Below are positions 581 through 11,589 of a DNA stretch of 51,545 nt, in pieces. Both the position numbers and the translations under genes were made by a program. The DNA comes from Bacteroidia bacterium (GTDB lineage: Bacteria; Bacteroidota; Bacteroidia; JANWVE01), in contig JANWVW010000002.1 in assembly GCA_025056095.1 (NCBI GenBank), forward strand, positions 1-51,545, given 5' to 3'. Below the pieces are notes generated by a model that ran no database searches, was not told where the DNA came from, and was given only the letters and a program-made list of their open reading frames with translations. Position 1 is the stretch's first letter; the number at the start of each line of letters is the position of its first letter.

Positions 581-3241
581 TTACTGCTCACTTAACTTAA
601 ATTTAGCTACTTGGCTTTGTAAGGTTTCTGCAATTTTGGCTAAACGTTCAGTACCTTGTGAAATATCGGAGATGGCTTGGTCAATAGCACGTGCTGAGCT
701 GGCAATTTCTTGTGAGCCGCTGGCAGTTTCTTCAGAAACCACCACGATTTTTTCAATATTTTTCACTACTGCTCCAATAGCTTCTTTTTGGCTTACTGAA
801 GCATCGGCTATGCTTTTGGAAAGTTGTAAGGTTTCGGTACTGCTATTGTTAATATCATTTAAGATTTTCACGGCTTTTTTAGTGGCAGCGTTACCAATAG
901 TTACATTCTCTTGTACTTTTTCTATCGCTTTGCTTGTACTACTTACGTCTTTCTGAATGCTCTTAATTAGTTTATCAATTTCTACGGTAGATTTACGCGA
1001 ACCCTCAGCAAGTTTACGAATCTCCTCAGCTACTACAGCAAAGCCTCGTCCTGCATCGCCTGCGCGAGCCGCTTCAATAGCAGCGTTAAGGGCTAAAAGA
1101 TTAGTTTGTGAGGCAATATCAGTAATTACATTCAAAATGCGTGATATTTCCTCTGAGCGGTTAATAAGTACTTCAATTGCTTGGGCAGAGATTTGTGCGG
1201 AATTAGAAATATCATTCATATTTTGCGATACACTTTCTACAATGGTAAGCCCATTTTGGCAATTAATTTGTCCTTTTTCTGCTGAAAGGTTAATAGCTGC
1301 AGCTTTGGTACTGATTTCTTGTGCTGATTTGAGTGTAGCTTCTACCAAGCGAGAGGATTCGTCTATTCTAATAGCTTGCTCTTGTGCTCCGTCAGCCATT
1401 TGTTGGATAGAAAGGCTTACTTCTTTAGTACTTTGGCGAGTGCTATTAGTTTGGGTAGCTACTTCATTAGCTATTTTGGCAACACTTTTAGCTACCACTT
1501 GTATTTGTTGGATAAGGGTTTGCAAATTAGCGATGGCTTGATTCAAGGCAGTAGCTATTTTGTAGATATCTCCTTGAGTAGGTTGTGTAAATTTACGTGT
1601 TAAATCTCCTTCGGCAACATTATTTAAGATTTCACTAATTCCTAAAATAGGGGTAGAAATATTTTCTAATAAAGTATTGATTCCTTCAATAATTTCCTTC
1701 CAAACACCTTGATAAGCAGTTGATTGCAAACGCGTAGATAAGATACCTTCCTTTCCTGCCAATTGAATAACCTTTTTTATATCCTCGCTAATGCTTTGCA
1801 GGGTGTTGCGTAAAACAATATTAGTATCAATCATAGATTTGAGTTCACCTTCGACAATAATACCTGTGGCATCAAAATCGATGTTTAAGTTGCCTTCTTT
1901 GAGGGCTAGAAGAAATTCACTATTTTTTTTCAGGGCTTGAGTAAAGCGGGTAACATTTTTAGCTAATTTAATCACTTTCACAACTTTTCCCTGCTCGTCC
2001 TTAACAGGGGAGTAAGTAGCATCAAACCAAACTTCTTTTTTGTTTTTGGTCAATCGCTTAAATGTGCTACTAATATTTTTGCCTTCACGTAATTGTTGCC
2101 AAAATTTTTTGTACTCCTCTGATTGGGCATAAGCAGGTTCTATAAAAGTGCTATGATGTTTCCCATACACTTCTTCAGCAGTATATTCTAAATCGTTTAA
2201 GAATATATCATTAGCACTCAGAAAATAACCCTCGGCACTCAATTCAATGTAGCCGTAAGAAGCATTGATAGCATTCATTTTAGCTTGTATATCGGCTTGT
2301 GAGGCTTTAAGTGCTGCACCAAGTCTTGCTTGTGCTTCTTGGGTGGCTTGTAATTCCTCCATATTTTGCCGTAGCTCCTCTTCTACAGCTTTTGCTTGTT
2401 CTAGTTGCTGCCGGATGGTATTTTCTAGTGACTTCCTTTCGCTAATATTTCGGATAAATCCTGTAAAAATACGTTTTCCTGATTTGAGGTAAGTTTCACC
2501 AATAGCTATTTCCACAGGGAAAACGGAACCATCCTTACGTTTGGCTTCTACTTCACGTCCAACTCCAATAACTTTTTTTATACCTGTAATTTTGTATTGT
2601 TTTATATAGTTATCATGTTCTGAGGCATAGGGTTCAGGCATGAGCATACTTATATTTTGCCCAAGCATTTCTTGCAAGCTATAACCAAATATACGCTCTG
2701 TGGGAGTATTGACTTTCTCAATAATTCCATCTTCGTTAATAACCAAAATTGCGTCGATAGAAGTATTTAATACTCCTTCATAGAGGAGTTTTTCCTCTTT
2801 CATTTGTTCGATTTCCCTTTCTAAGGAGAGGTTTTTTTGTTTCAAGAGAGTTAGGTTACTTTCTATATCTCTTTCTTTTTGCTTTTGCTTTGAAATATCA
2901 ATGAAAAATGCAGTAAATACGATGTTTTGGTTAGCGTCAAGGGCTTGGCTGGTAGCAATCAATGTAGGAACTTTTTTACCATCTTTTCGCACAATTTCTA
3001 TATATGGTTCTGTATTAGTAAAGGCTTGATTATTAAAGTATTTTTGGATATTAGTTAGATATTCGGGAAGGATGAGACTTTGTAAAGGCTTATTCAATAC
3101 TTCTTCTTGTGAATAGCCCCATAGTACCTCAGCCGATTGACTAAAAAACAAAACGTCGCCTTTATAGTTGAAAGATACTACTGCCGCTGTGCAATTATCT
3201 AGGGTTTGGGCATAAATATTTTCGTAATAGGTATTTTCCAT
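581..3241 (-). CDS. Soluble methyl-accepting chemotaxis protein with three PAS domains
   Basis: 886 residues with no transmembrane segment, so a cytoplasmic chemoreceptor. Order: PAS (about 8-115), coiled coil, PAS (about 155-270), coiled coil, PAS (about 325-435), a HAMP-like linker (about 440-585) and an MCP signalling domain to the end. The signalling tip is well conserved around residues 705-745 ([20 protein letters not shown], then [15 protein letters not shown]), the contact site for CheA and CheW. The PAS domains may sense redox state, gas or a small ligand, but no cofactor residue can be assigned by eye. It diverges from the REC/SpoIIE pair. cheA lies 22 kb away. The class is certain; the signal is unknown. 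Confidence 0.93.
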
Positions 3242-5280: not shown

Positions 5281-5635
5281 CGATAAATTCTTTAAGTTAA
5301 AATCTCTTTCTTCTTATTGCTTCAAATAAAAAGAGAAATCTTATTTTATATAAATAAATTAATTAAAATCATAAAAATTTTTATTAAATTTCTAAAAATA
5401 ATAAATTTTTTAATTTTGGTCCACTGTTTTTTCTTATCAAAGTATGAGTACTTAAGTTACTCAATTTGAATATCAAAATGCGAAGTCCATATCTTTTAAG
5501 TATTTGCTGAATACTTACTCACTTAAGTTTCTTAACTTTCTAGTGCTATAACTATTGTGCATATTTTTCGAATATAATCGGCTTACAACTTGCCTTCTAA
5601 TAATTAGGCAAAGGTATTTTAGAAGTAAGATTTAT
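5281..5635. other. Intergenic region between convergent genes
   Basis: 355 bases, very AT-rich, with no gene seen. A weak hairpin (TCTCTTT / AAAGAGA) within about 50 bases of the SpoIIE stop could act as a terminator. Near 5446-5462 there is a near-palindrome GAGTACTTAAGTTACTC, and CTTAAGT recurs near 5520. Confidence 0.4.
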
Positions 5636-6881: not shown

Positions 6882-9356
6882 TTACGCTTCTACTAATGGC
6901 TCTACCATAATTTTGAGGTTCACCAGTGAACAAAGTTCTATAAATTTTTTCAATAAACGTTGTGTTATATCATCTTTTTCTTCGGGATAGATAAAGGGAT
7001 AATGTGTAAGTTTGAGTTGCCTTGCAGCACGCGTCCAATGTGGTACAGCACGTTTGCTAATTTTGAATAGAATATTTTGTATCATACCCAAGCGAATATC
7101 TACGGCAATGCTTCGCAAGTAGCGGATTATTTGGGTAATTAAGTCTAAAAGTTCTTCATTATCTACTTGCTTTTCATAGTCTTGTACCATTTCTAAAATA
7201 CGAATAGAAGCTACGTGGCTCAAGTTTTCTTTATCTACATTTACCCGCCAATGAGCTACCTCTTGACAAGTTTGCTTAAATTTTTCAATATCTGCGGATT
7301 TACGAATGAAGAAGTTTTTGAGCGAATTATTAATAACGATTTCAAAGTTTTGCTTTAAGATAGCTGGAATTTTGAGTTGGGCTTTTTGCATTACGTTGAG
7401 TAGGTGATAGTTACGATGGTAAATGCGCTCGTAACTTTCCTCTGCATATTTTAGGTTATCTTCTAAAATTTTGTTAAGCACTTTGGTCTGTTCGTCCTTA
7501 AAGAGTTCCCAAAAAGAGAAATGCTTAACGGGAAAATAAATTTGCATAATTTGAAGTACTTCTGCCAAGTTACCTTCTTTGAAGGCGAGTTTAAGTTGGT
7601 TTGCCATTTTGTTAAAATCGTCAGGGGCGAGGTACGGGGTAGAGCTTCCAATGATTTGATGCTGCCCTAAATAAACTACAGCGAAGCAGAAATATTTTTT
7701 AGAATAGGTAATTTTGGAGTGCACCCATGTTTTGCCGATAGCTAGCTTTTGCAAACCTGCTTCTAAGCGTTCGAAATATTCGCTGTCAAAGTCATAATTA
7801 AGTACACTAATATCTTGGGGGTTTTCTTCAAAGAGGCTTGCAACGGCATAGTGCATACCTACTTTGCTAAGTGTAATTCGGGCAGGGCTGGTGTAACGTG
7901 TGTAGATTTCTGCTCCGTTATCATATTGTTTGAGGTTACTTTTAGCTTCATAGATTTTCTCTAAGAAAGCTCGCTCGAAGGTTTGGTTACTAGCGGTTTC
8001 GGCTAATTGGATAGCACGGTTAGCATATTGTAAGACTTGTATTGTTTCTATTCCTGAGATATCATTGAAAAACCATGCACAACTAGTAAACATAAGCAAG
8101 CATTGCCGTTGCATTTCTAATAGGCGTAAAATTTTGGTCTTGTCTTCGTCGGTATGTTCGGTTTTGAAGTGTTTTTTTAGGAAGCGGTTTACGTTTTCGG
8201 GGCTTCTATCTAGAATTACGTCTATGTAGGCATTACGGACTTTCCATACATCGCTGATGTATTTGCTGAGTTCGGTTTCATATACTTTGGCAAGTTCATC
8301 GCGTAGCCAGTCTAGGGCTTCTCGTAGAGGTTTTCGCCAGAGTTGGTGGAAGTGGGGTTCGCCGCCTGTTTTGCAACCGCAATTGCTTCGCCAACGCTCT
8401 ATGCCATGGGCGCAACTCCAAGAACTATTTTCATAGATTTCCACTTCATATTCAGGTTCAAAGAGGTGTATATATTGGCTGTAATTGGTGATTTTAGCTA
8501 AATTGTTTTCTTCAATATATCGCAGGCAGTAAGCTAGTGCCATATCTCCATGCCTGTGGTGGTGTCCGTAGCTTTCGCCGTCAGTAGCGATATGCACGAG
8601 TTGGGGAGAAGGATCATGCGGGTTAAAACTGTTTACTAATTGATGAGCGAAGCGTTTGCCGTCGTCTAAAATTCCTTTGAAGGCGACTTGCTCAGCAGAG
8701 GCGGCATCATAGAAGAATAGTATAATTTGCTTGCCTGAGGGTAACTTACATATGTAATGTTTGCGTGTTTCTATGCCGTTGTACCATTGTTCTGTACCGA
8801 TTTTTCTATATCGCTTGGCTTGGTGCGGGGCGAGTATAGTAAATTTGATATGATGTTTGGCTAAGATCTCCAAAGTTTCTATATCTACGGCAGTTTCTGC
8901 TAGCCACATGCCTTCAGGTTTTCTTCCGAAGCGGTACTCAAAATCGCGGATGCCCCAAATTACTTGGGTTTCTTTATCGCGGGTATTAGCCAAGGGCATA
9001 ATAATATGATTATACACTTGTGCCATGGCTGAGCCGTGTCCATTAAAGTATTTCATGCTCAACTTATCCCCTTCTAATATTGCTTGGTAGGTAGTAGGGG
9101 CTTTGTATTGCATCCAAGAGAGCAATGTTGCTCCAAAATTGAAGCTAATTTTTGAGTAATTATTTACAATATCTATAATCTTATGCTCCTCGTTCAAGAT
9201 CCGTGAGAATCCATTCGGTGCATAGCACTCTGAGGTAATGCGTTCGTTCCAATCGTGAAAAGGATAGGCAGACTCCTGCACCTCAATCTCCTCTAACCAA
9301 GCATTTTCACGTGGCGGCTGATAAAAGTGCCCATGAATACATATATACTTTTGCAT
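6882..9356 (-). CDS. GH57-family alpha-glucan hydrolase/transferase with DUF3536 domain
   Basis: 824 residues, no signal peptide, so cytoplasmic. The GH57 start motif H8-x-H10-FYQPPRENAW, the region with candidate nucleophile E154 (GMWLAETAVD) and the acid/base region with D259 (ATDGESYGHH) are all present. The long C-terminal half matches the DUF3536 architecture. The family contains alpha-amylases, 4-alpha-glucanotransferases and branching enzymes; which activity this has is not decidable by eye. With glgE and glgB in the window, a role in glycogen or maltodextrin turnover is likely. The ATG at 9356 directly precedes the conserved QKYICIHGHFYQ start. Confidence 0.87.
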   Translation of the reverse strand: MQKYICIHGHFYQPPRENAWLEEIEVQESAYPFHDWNERITSECYAPNGFSRILNEEHKIIDIVNNYSKISFNFGATLLSWMQYKAPTTYQAILEGDKLSMKYFNGHGSAMAQVYNHIIMPLANTRDKETQVIWGIRDFEYRFGRKPEGMWLAETAVDIETLEILAKHHIKFTILAPHQAKRYRKIGTEQWYNGIETRKHYICKLPSGKQIILFFYDAASAEQVAFKGILDDGKRFAHQLVNSFNPHDPSPQLVHIATDGESYGHHHRHGDMALAYCLRYIEENNLAKITNYSQYIHLFEPEYEVEIYENSSWSCAHGIERWRSNCGCKTGGEPHFHQLWRKPLREALDWLRDELAKVYETELSKYISDVWKVRNAYIDVILDRSPENVNRFLKKHFKTEHTDEDKTKILRLLEMQRQCLLMFTSCAWFFNDISGIETIQVLQYANRAIQLAETASNQTFERAFLEKIYEAKSNLKQYDNGAEIYTRYTSPARITLSKVGMHYAVASLFEENPQDISVLNYDFDSEYFERLEAGLQKLAIGKTWVHSKITYSKKYFCFAVVYLGQHQIIGSSTPYLAPDDFNKMANQLKLAFKEGNLAEVLQIMQIYFPVKHFSFWELFKDEQTKVLNKILEDNLKYAEESYERIYHRNYHLLNVMQKAQLKIPAILKQNFEIVINNSLKNFFIRKSADIEKFKQTCQEVAHWRVNVDKENLSHVASIRILEMVQDYEKQVDNEELLDLITQIIRYLRSIAVDIRLGMIQNILFKISKRAVPHWTRAARQLKLTHYPFIYPEEKDDITQRLLKKFIELCSLVNLKIMVEPLVEA

Positions 9357-9497
9357 ATTCTTGTGTTGTGTTTATATTTTTACCATTATGGACAGTTCAC
9401 CCAAGTTCAATATTTATAGAATAAAACTTTATATCTAATACCTACTATTCAAGCAAAGTAGCTTTTATCTAAAGTATTATCTCCTAAATATTAAGTA

Positions 9498-10085
9498 CAA
9501 TAGTTTTTATTTAAATACATTTATTCATTGTTATACACATTATTTTTTATATTTCAAATAATACAGATTATAAACAAAAAGTAATACTTTACAAGTAAAA
9601 AAATTTGTTTTACATAAGTTAAACTATACTTTACATTTTATTAAACATAGTAAAAAAATAAATTATAGTAATTTATAAAAATTTTAACATATAACAAAAA
9701 TAAAATATTACACTTTTACATTTTTTTAGTATATCTCAAAAACAAAAAATAATACTTTACAATTAAATAAGTATATTTTACCTTAAAAGTAGTATATTTT
9801 TTATTTTAACTAGTGTATCTTGTAACTAAAGTATATTTCCTTACAAATAAAAAAGCATATAAATTAACCTTTGTAATATATTTTATATTTTAACAAATAT
9901 ATAAAAAAGTTAAAACATAATACTTAACAAGTAAATTAGTAAGTTTTTTTTTGTAAGTAATATACTTTACATATTATTAAGTATAACTCAAAAACAAGAT
10001 ATAGTACTTTACAAATAAATTAGTATTTTTTTTAATAAGGGTATAATAGTAAAAAATTTTATAGCTTAACACAAATATAAAGTTG
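9498..10085. repeat. Degenerate 84-bp tandem repeat (two 42-bp half-units), seven units
   Basis: The 826-base gap between the GH57 gene and the membrane SpoIIE gene contains units starting at 9498, 9582, 9666, 9750, 9834, 9918 and 10002, exactly 84 bases apart. The best-kept unit start is TAATACTTTACAA followed by GTAAAT or AATAAATTAGTA (9582, 9750, 9918, 10002); the units at 9498, 9666 and 9834 are more diverged. A related half-unit, TATACTTTACAT then ATTAA, recurs 42 bases into the unit (clearest near 9625 and 9961). Units 3 and 6 share the tail CTCAAAAACAA. All frames are rich in stops, so it is not coding. The remaining 9357-9497 holds no gene. Confidence 0.85.
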
Positions 10086-10182
10086 TAAAGAAAAAAGCTA
10101 TTTTTAATGTAAAAATATTTTAGGTAAAAGTTTTTTAGAGAAACTATTGTATATAAATTTATTAAGTTTTATAGTTAGACTT

Positions 10183-11589
10183 TCATATTTCTATACCTAT
10201 GACTAAAACATCATCCGTTTGCTCTTCTTCTCCTTTCCATTGTTGAAAGTTTCTTTCTAAAGTACTTTTTTGTATACTCATTTCTAAATGAGTTTGTGAT
10301 AGTAATAATTCTTTGAAACGACTCACTGTAAACTTACCCTGAATTCCAAATTGATCGGCATAGCCGTCAGAAAAGAGATATAACCTATCTTCTTTATGGA
10401 TGGTTAAATGCTTTTCGGTAAACTTCTTATTTTTGTATTGCGTGCTTCCTATAGGAAACTTATCCCCTTTATATACTTCTAATTCAGTACTATTTTTATG
10501 GATTATCCAAAGAGGGCGCTTAGCACCCGCAAAAGTAACTTTTCCTTGGGGTAAGTTAATCTTTATTAGGGCAATATCCATGCCGTCGTGTAGAGCTTGT
10601 TCGTGATGGAGGTTACTTTCTTGTTGGAGTACAGCGACTAACCGTTCGTCTAATTTGTGTAAAATTTCAGCAGGTGCGTGAATGTTCTCTTGGTTTACGA
10701 TTTGGTCCAATAGGGTAATGCCGATAATGGTCATAAAAGCACCGGGTACGCCATGTCCTGTACAATCTGCCACAGCAAGGAATAGATCAATTCCTGAGTT
10801 TTCTGTTTTTGGTGGATGCTGTAAGTGTGGAGAAGCAAACCAATAAAAATCTCCTGAAATAATATGTTTGGGTAGATAGCTAATAAAGCTATTAGGGAAG
10901 AATTTGGCTAAGTTTTGTTCTTGGGGAAGTAATGCCTTTTGTATTCTTTCAGCATAGCTGATGCTTTCAATCATATCTGCATTTCTTTGCTCAATTTCCT
11001 CGTTTCGCTCTAAGATAAACCGCTGTGAGGCAATAAAATCTTCTTTATAGAGGTTAGTAATCGTAAAAATGATTGCAATAGCCACCATGGCATTTATCAT
11101 ATACAAGACATTCTCTATATTGAAGTTTTTGTTAGCTATGTATAGAAAAGTCAAGTGTGAGAAGACATAACATAAGAAGGCAAAAAATGCGGCAAAATAT
11201 TTTGCCCTGCCGTCAAAAAGTAATACTGAAAGCACTGAAAGCCCTATCAAAATAACAGAAGTATTAGAAATACTACGGTTGAGTTCATTAACAGTAGCAA
11301 CTAACATAAGTAAAATATTCACCGTAAAGAATGCCCAGACTTTTCCGTAAGTATACTTCCTTTGGCGGTGTAGCCAGTAGATAGGAAAACAGACTAAGCC
11401 TAAAATGGCGAGGTCTAAGAAGAGGGCTTGATAGTTTTTTGTGAAAAGGTTAATTAATACATATCCTATAAGGAACAAAGAAGCTATAGTATTTAAGCCG
11501 TTGACTGTCTTTACTTGGCGGCTCGTCAAAAGTTCTAAGCCTTCGTGAATACCATTATTGAGGGCTTGCTTCCACCAGCGAAAAAGCAT
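10183..11589 (-). CDS. Membrane-anchored SpoIIE-type PP2C serine phosphatase
   Basis: 468 residues. The N-terminal ~180 residues contain about six hydrophobic helices (roughly 34-178) forming a membrane sensor region, followed by a short coiled coil and a SpoIIE phosphatase domain with IISGDFYW (~240), DCTGHGVPGAFMTIIG (~270-286) and TDDVLVIGI at the C terminus. It is a paralogue of the soluble phosphatase at 3.9-5.3 kb; the catalytic halves align well (LPKxIxSGDFYWF, ADCTGHGVPGAFM). It probably relays a membrane signal to a partner-switching regulator. It is transcribed divergently from nuoH across a 168-base gap. Confidence 0.9.
   Translation of the reverse strand: MLFRWWKQALNNGIHEGLELLTSRQVKTVNGLNTIASLFLIGYVLINLFTKNYQALFLDLAILGLVCFPIYWLHRQRKYTYGKVWAFFTVNILLMLVATVNELNRSISNTSVILIGLSVLSVLLFDGRAKYFAAFFAFLCYVFSHLTFLYIANKNFNIENVLYMINAMVAIAIIFTITNLYKEDFIASQRFILERNEEIEQRNADMIESISYAERIQKALLPQEQNLAKFFPNSFISYLPKHIISGDFYWFASPHLQHPPKTENSGIDLFLAVADCTGHGVPGAFMTIIGITLLDQIVNQENIHAPAEILHKLDERLVAVLQQESNLHHEQALHDGMDIALIKINLPQGKVTFAGAKRPLWIIHKNSTELEVYKGDKFPIGSTQYKNKKFTEKHLTIHKEDRLYLFSDGYADQFGIQGKFTVSRFKELLLSQTHLEMSIQKSTLERNFQQWKGEEEQTDDVLVIGIEI

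Follow-up and report, generated by a model that had tools for sequence, protein, structure and literature searches.

A diverged 84-bp tandem array holds exact register in an AT-rich intergenic gap of a Bacteroidia bacterium and may represent an old set of protein-binding boxes

The window analyzed here is the whole 51,545-nucleotide stretch of contig JANWVW010000002.1 from the Bacteroidia bacterium assembly GCA_025056095.1. An intergenic gap of 826 bp with a GC content of 16% lies at positions 9357 to 10182 and is flanked by two minus-strand genes. It is located upstream of the start codon of a GH57/DUF3536 protein gene (824 aa, positions 6882 to 9356; Pfam PF12055, E 9e-104, and PF03065, E 9e-15), which is followed by a response regulator and then by a hydrolase, and downstream of the stop codon of a SpoIIE-family (PP2C-type) phosphatase gene (468 aa, positions 10183 to 11589; Pfam PF07228, E 9e-22). 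The flanking genes scanned are housekeeping or signaling genes, none of them mobile, and no DNA-binding gene adjoining the repeats was found among the window genes scanned. The window also encodes CheA and CheB, a PAS/HAMP chemoreceptor with a 21-bp (heptad) DNA period (positions 581 to 3241) and alpha-glucan enzymes (a GlgE domain, a branching-enzyme-like amylase and GH31). A second AT-rich spacer, at positions 5281 to 5635 behind another SpoIIE gene, carries a two-copy 30-bp AT repeat at positions 5355 to 5412.

Within the gap, six 84-bp units, corresponding to twelve 42-bp half-units, run in exact register from position 9540 to 10043, with profile scores of 37 to 68 per unit. This array is confirmed as a real feature. 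Autocorrelation of positions 9498 to 10085 gave an identity of 0.579 at lag 84 (z 9.8), 0.516 at lag 42 (z 6.7) and 0.471 at lag 21 (z 4.8), the last indicating a weak 21-bp sub-period; peaks were seen at 42, 84, 168 and 252 bp, and other multiples of 21 gave peaks as well. The 84-base peak, on which the initial annotation had let its proposal depend, is therefore present, since the highest identity at any lag from 5 to 259 in 500 dinucleotide shuffles was 0.480. Tandem Repeats Finder independently reported an 84-bp repeat at positions 9728 to 10031 and a 42-bp repeat at positions 9626 to 9758. In addition, all nine sliding 84-bp windows found their best rightward match at exactly 84 (mean neighbor identity, 0.589), in agreement with the exact 84-base phase and the related half-units 42 bases apart described in the initial annotation. 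The same annotation counted seven units over 588 bases; the regular 84-bp repeat stands, but the full units number six and the half-unit at positions 10044 to 10085 is excluded. The right limit is position 10043, the 84-bp window starting at 10044 having an identity of 0.31 to 0.46 to the units and a profile score of -39.8. On the left, positions 9456 to 9539 form a degenerate edge (identity of 0.44 to 0.54 to the other units, profile score 1.3) that retains the 84/42 register, with best offsets of 84 and 42. Similarity to the other units is highest for the central units (up to 0.74) and lowest for those at the edges.

Alignment of the half-units yields a 42-bp consensus that opens with TTATACTTTACAATTAAATTAGTATAT. 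The core box, TAATACTTTACAAGTAAAAAA, was located on the plus strand at positions 9582 to 9602, with aligned counterparts at 9624, 9666, 9708, 9750, 9792, 9834, 9876, 9918, 9960 and 10002, while the core TACTTTACAA occurs exactly at only three array positions (9585, 9753 and 10005). Column identity over the six units has a 42-bp period (p 0.0013, column permutation), and no period of 10.5 bp (p 0.56) or 21 bp was detected in it. Core columns have an identity of 0.70 to 0.75 at lags 84, 168, 252 and 336, with no decay with distance. The 12-bp linker columns (columns 28 to 39 of units counted from 9582, for example positions 9609 to 9620) retain no similarity between copies, their pairwise identity of 0.27 to 0.46 being that expected by chance, yet their length is the same in every copy. 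A linker stretch of such low identity had a simulated p of 0.001 under uniform rates. Clustering of conserved columns was significant for blocks of 12 to 14 bp only (p 0.014 to 0.019), not for blocks of 6 to 7 bp, and the G and C bases of the units occupy fixed phases. No other single observation hints as strongly that spacing is important as the loss of linker sequence while linker length was kept. The 42-bp conservation peaks near TATACTTTACA, together with a linker of constant length and chance similarity, favor selection on spacing, as in a binding-site array with four-turn spacing. In the 1.6 Mb of the genome sampled, no other 500-bp window is as AT-rich: the array has 13.8% GC against 23% for the next-lowest window (a run of N in L104 was set aside in this ranking), and drift alone should not produce so extreme a composition.

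The retention of register was evaluated by simulating the neutral decay of six copies on a star tree and on a coalescent tree, with the indel/substitution ratio varied. Under the star model, complete register had a P of 0.003 at a ratio of 0.05 and was seen in 0 of 300 runs at 0.1; under the coalescent model, P was 0.01 at ratios of 0.02 to 0.05, with 0 of 200 at 0.1 and 0.13. These P values overstate the case somewhat, since the locus was picked for its phase, so that the register test carries some ascertainment bias. In Salmonella, small indels have been measured at about 13% of base substitutions (ratio 0.13; PMC9040049), a borrowed value that may differ from that of this lineage. At the published ratio, exact register is improbable under neutral drift, which favors selection on spacing. 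Of the 209 ORF-free gaps sampled over 1.6 Mb, a single one, a CRISPR array, outscored the present array, so the choice was not made from a large collection of arrays. At 10.5 bp per turn, 42 and 84 bp correspond to 4.0 and 8.0 turns; the earlier proposal that this layout suits an array of binding sites is strengthened by the exact register and the 42-bp periodic conservation. Overall, the conserved cores, constant helical spacing and free linker sequence that mark a multi-site protein-binding array were all found at this locus.

Because of the register, the periodic conservation and the composition, we tentatively prefer to read the locus as a putatively functional old array ahead of the GH57/DUF3536 gene, in which about twelve degenerate boxes for a DNA-binding protein stand four helical turns apart. 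This reading is slightly more likely than that of a neutral AT-rich minisatellite, which is a serious rival and has a real, if lesser, chance of being correct. As a neutral minisatellite, the 21/42/84-bp repeats would have been built by slippage and unequal exchange and would then have decayed, the register being due to luck and few indels. Such an origin fits the nested periods, the greater likeness among central than among edge units, which is satellite-like, and the confinement of the array to this genome. It is opposed by the register, by conservation that is periodic at 42 bp rather than uniform, and by a GC content far below that of the other gaps of the genome. Divergence free of constraint on unit length or columns, as expected of a neutral minisatellite, is not what the register and column tests returned at this locus, selected for its phase. 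Typical bacterial intergenic minisatellites and VNTR loci consist of near-identical units. The present array resembles them in its head-to-tail units within an intergenic gap and in its nested higher-order periods, but its units are only about 60% alike and nevertheless in exact register. It thus appears to belong among intergenic tandem arrays as an unusual variant whose function is presumed. In another genome of the class (L022, positions 1302 to 1556 and 1712 to 1770), an AT-rich stretch carries a nested 8/16/24/32-bp array of ATTGTAAT-like units that have diverged (67% matches, 4% indels) and remain largely in phase. Given its 8-bp unit, this phase keeping is not attributable to helical phasing, and it counts against spacing selection in the 42/84-bp array. 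A further repeat in an ORF-free stretch of the present genome consists of ten copies of the 7-bp unit GAGTACA (L133, positions 10368 to 10437).

The neutral reading also gains from the searches for relatives and partners, which speak against a binding array in that no partner protein, dyad covariation, enrichment of the core elsewhere or array in relatives was found. When the gap was compared by BLAST with the whole genome (3.05 Mb in 397 contigs, about 47% of it examined by sequence similarity only), nothing but the gap itself rose above background, and a three-unit profile had no match in the roughly 1.6 Mb of this genome and 0.5 Mb from relatives to which it was applied. The core, for which a genome search had been proposed, does not behave as a genome-wide motif (20 matches, compared with 16 for a reversed control), and the genome's other AT-rich gaps do not generally show a 21/42/84-bp period. 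The two congeneric genomes are distant (NuoH 52% identical), too far for DNA comparison, and in them the DUF3536 gene, synteny and a comparable array were not found. Two DUF3536 relatives were found, neither of which has a tandem repeat upstream, and no described case was found in the literature. A dyad-symmetric operator was rejected, as the complementarity of ATACTT-N11-AAGTAT is not greater inside a unit than across units and pair counts equal those of shuffles.

An improbable account is that of intrinsically curved DNA, in which integer turns would add small A-tract bends in one plane and serve promoter activation or nucleoid folding with no sequence-specific binder. The end-to-end distance of the whole array was indeed low, at 0.34 and 0.40 in two wedge models versus 0.72 to 0.78 in shuffles (p 0.007 to 0.02), but 17% of randomly generated 84-bp-period arrays bend as much and predicted bending over 105 bp was the same as in shuffles. 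The special intrinsic curvature suggested in the initial annotation was therefore not borne out by curvature prediction. TTT, above the shuffle 95% level, and TTTACA are phased at 10.5 bp, both above shuffles, whereas AAA runs are not phased above shuffles; the TTTACA phasing counts in favor of the binding-site reading. The base spectrum reached z 10.3 at 21 bp and a nonsignificant 1.2 at 10.5 bp, and conservation follows the 42-bp core and not a 10.5-bp rhythm. Phased A-tract curved DNA was accordingly rejected, with local bending ordinary and global bending explained by the 84-bp period. Phased A-tract or nucleoid-protein regions of bacterial chromosomes (e.g., PMC3940949) are alike in AT-richness and whole-turn spacing; they differ in their A-tract rhythm of 10 to 11 bp, where the present locus has a 42/84-bp sequence repeat and ordinary local curvature.

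It is very unlikely that the gap preserves a remnant of foreign or mobile DNA, whether plasmid iterons, a partition site, or phage or host DNA. The locus is a composition outlier, and its half-unit is close in size to the repeats of the F plasmid sopC/parS-F site, in which SopB binds 16-bp inverted repeats within twelve 43-bp tandem units (PMC6238139). However, the array had no match among 72,556 plasmid and 50,697 phage records, the core pattern had none in viral contigs, and the scanned flanks are, as noted, free of mobile genes. The resemblance to sopC/parS-F extends to about twelve units of 42 to 43 bp, about 500 bp of non-coding DNA, and a conserved core with less conserved linkers. In contrast, the array described here is much more diverged and AT-rich, and it sits in chromosomal housekeeping surroundings without a conserved dyad or a nearby ParA/ParB gene. 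In its way of working, the array may be most like a sopC-type repeat, yet by the inverted repeats, ParAB and parS that define that class it falls outside it. No match to the parS consensus with fewer than two mismatches was obtained, and none near the array, and no ParA/ParB genes were found beside it among the window genes scanned. The earlier suggestion of sites for a segregation protein thus found no parS, and no ParB-like gene among those scanned in the window, to support it, and the possible proximity to ori or ter fared likewise, with no enrichment of dif-like sequences or DnaA boxes. A single DnaA box, TTATACACA, occurs at position 9531. Plasmid iterons are well-conserved direct repeats of about 19 to 22 bp bound by Rep. 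The array shares with them a 21-bp sub-period, direct repeats near two helical turns and AT-rich surroundings; it differs in its poorly conserved units and in having no rep gene, plasmid context or DnaA-box cluster. An iteron-type origin was rejected on the weakness of the 21-bp sub-period, the lack of DnaA-box enrichment and the lack of a rep gene among the scanned window genes.

The least probable explanation, that of decayed coding repeats of 7, 14 and 28 codons, is largely refuted: all periods are multiples of 3 and the other strong tandem repeats of the genome lie in coding sequence, most of the coding repeats (46 of 64 rows) having such periods, but each of the six frames of the gap holds 16 to 30 stops, several of them within the consensus unit. 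Substitutions showed no codon-position pattern at lags 84 and 168 (p 0.36 and 0.69, respectively), and lag 42 gave only a weak one (p 0.014). The initial annotation was right that the array is neither coding nor CRISPR, as the units are contiguous and diverged and most columns are similar. CRISPR-type repeats were observed at other loci. A probable CRISPR array at a contig end of the same genome (L139, positions 26 to 692) has a repeat of about 46 bp, GTTGTAAATTGGCTACACTTTTTTAATTTTGTATCGGCGTTTACAGC, and a period of about 77 bp, and a congeneric genome has a CRISPR-like array (L156, positions 39 to 396) whose repeat contains AATTTCTACTATTGTAGAT, typical of Cas12a (type V-A) systems. An RNA repeat was rejected, the units folding with z of -1.8 to 1.7 on either strand and matching no Rfam family above the gathering score. 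Bacteroidota -7 promoter boxes (TAnnTTTG) number three on the minus strand of the array and are not in 84-bp phase, sigma-70-like promoters are rarer than in shuffles, and no terminator was found. A 3' element shared by SpoIIE paralogues was also rejected; a core match lies 25 bp behind another SpoIIE gene (L039), yet the 3' flanks of ten SpoIIE matches have no common array.

Returning to the preferred binding-site array, we propose that it would have grown by successive tandem duplication from 21 to 42 to 84 bp, followed by copying of the 84-bp unit. Each 42 bp would then hold one box, with a core near TATACTTTACA and A/T-rich sequence after it, and all boxes would lie on one face of the DNA. 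Later substitutions may have worn the sequence, while length changes would have been removed because they would disturb the helical phasing of the boxes. A DNA-binding protein, of nucleoid type or a multimeric repressor, could load cooperatively along the array and, once bound, control the minus-strand gene starting at position 9356 and, after it, the response regulator and the hydrolase. In a narrower version, which we consider unlikely, the array would be a lineage-specific chromosomal element whose twelve boxes, degenerate and non-palindromic, recur every four turns; on it, a putative AT-specific Bacteroidota protein would form a filament or wrapped complex, read spacing over sequence and control alpha-glucan genes. 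If the repeats are instead neutral, they warn that old arrays can hold register by chance or through low indel rates. Comparing the register kept with the sequence lost offers a simple test to separate functional non-coding arrays from decaying satellites. If spacing has been selected while the sequence drifts, the array would be a natural record of a helical-phase-dependent protein-DNA complex.
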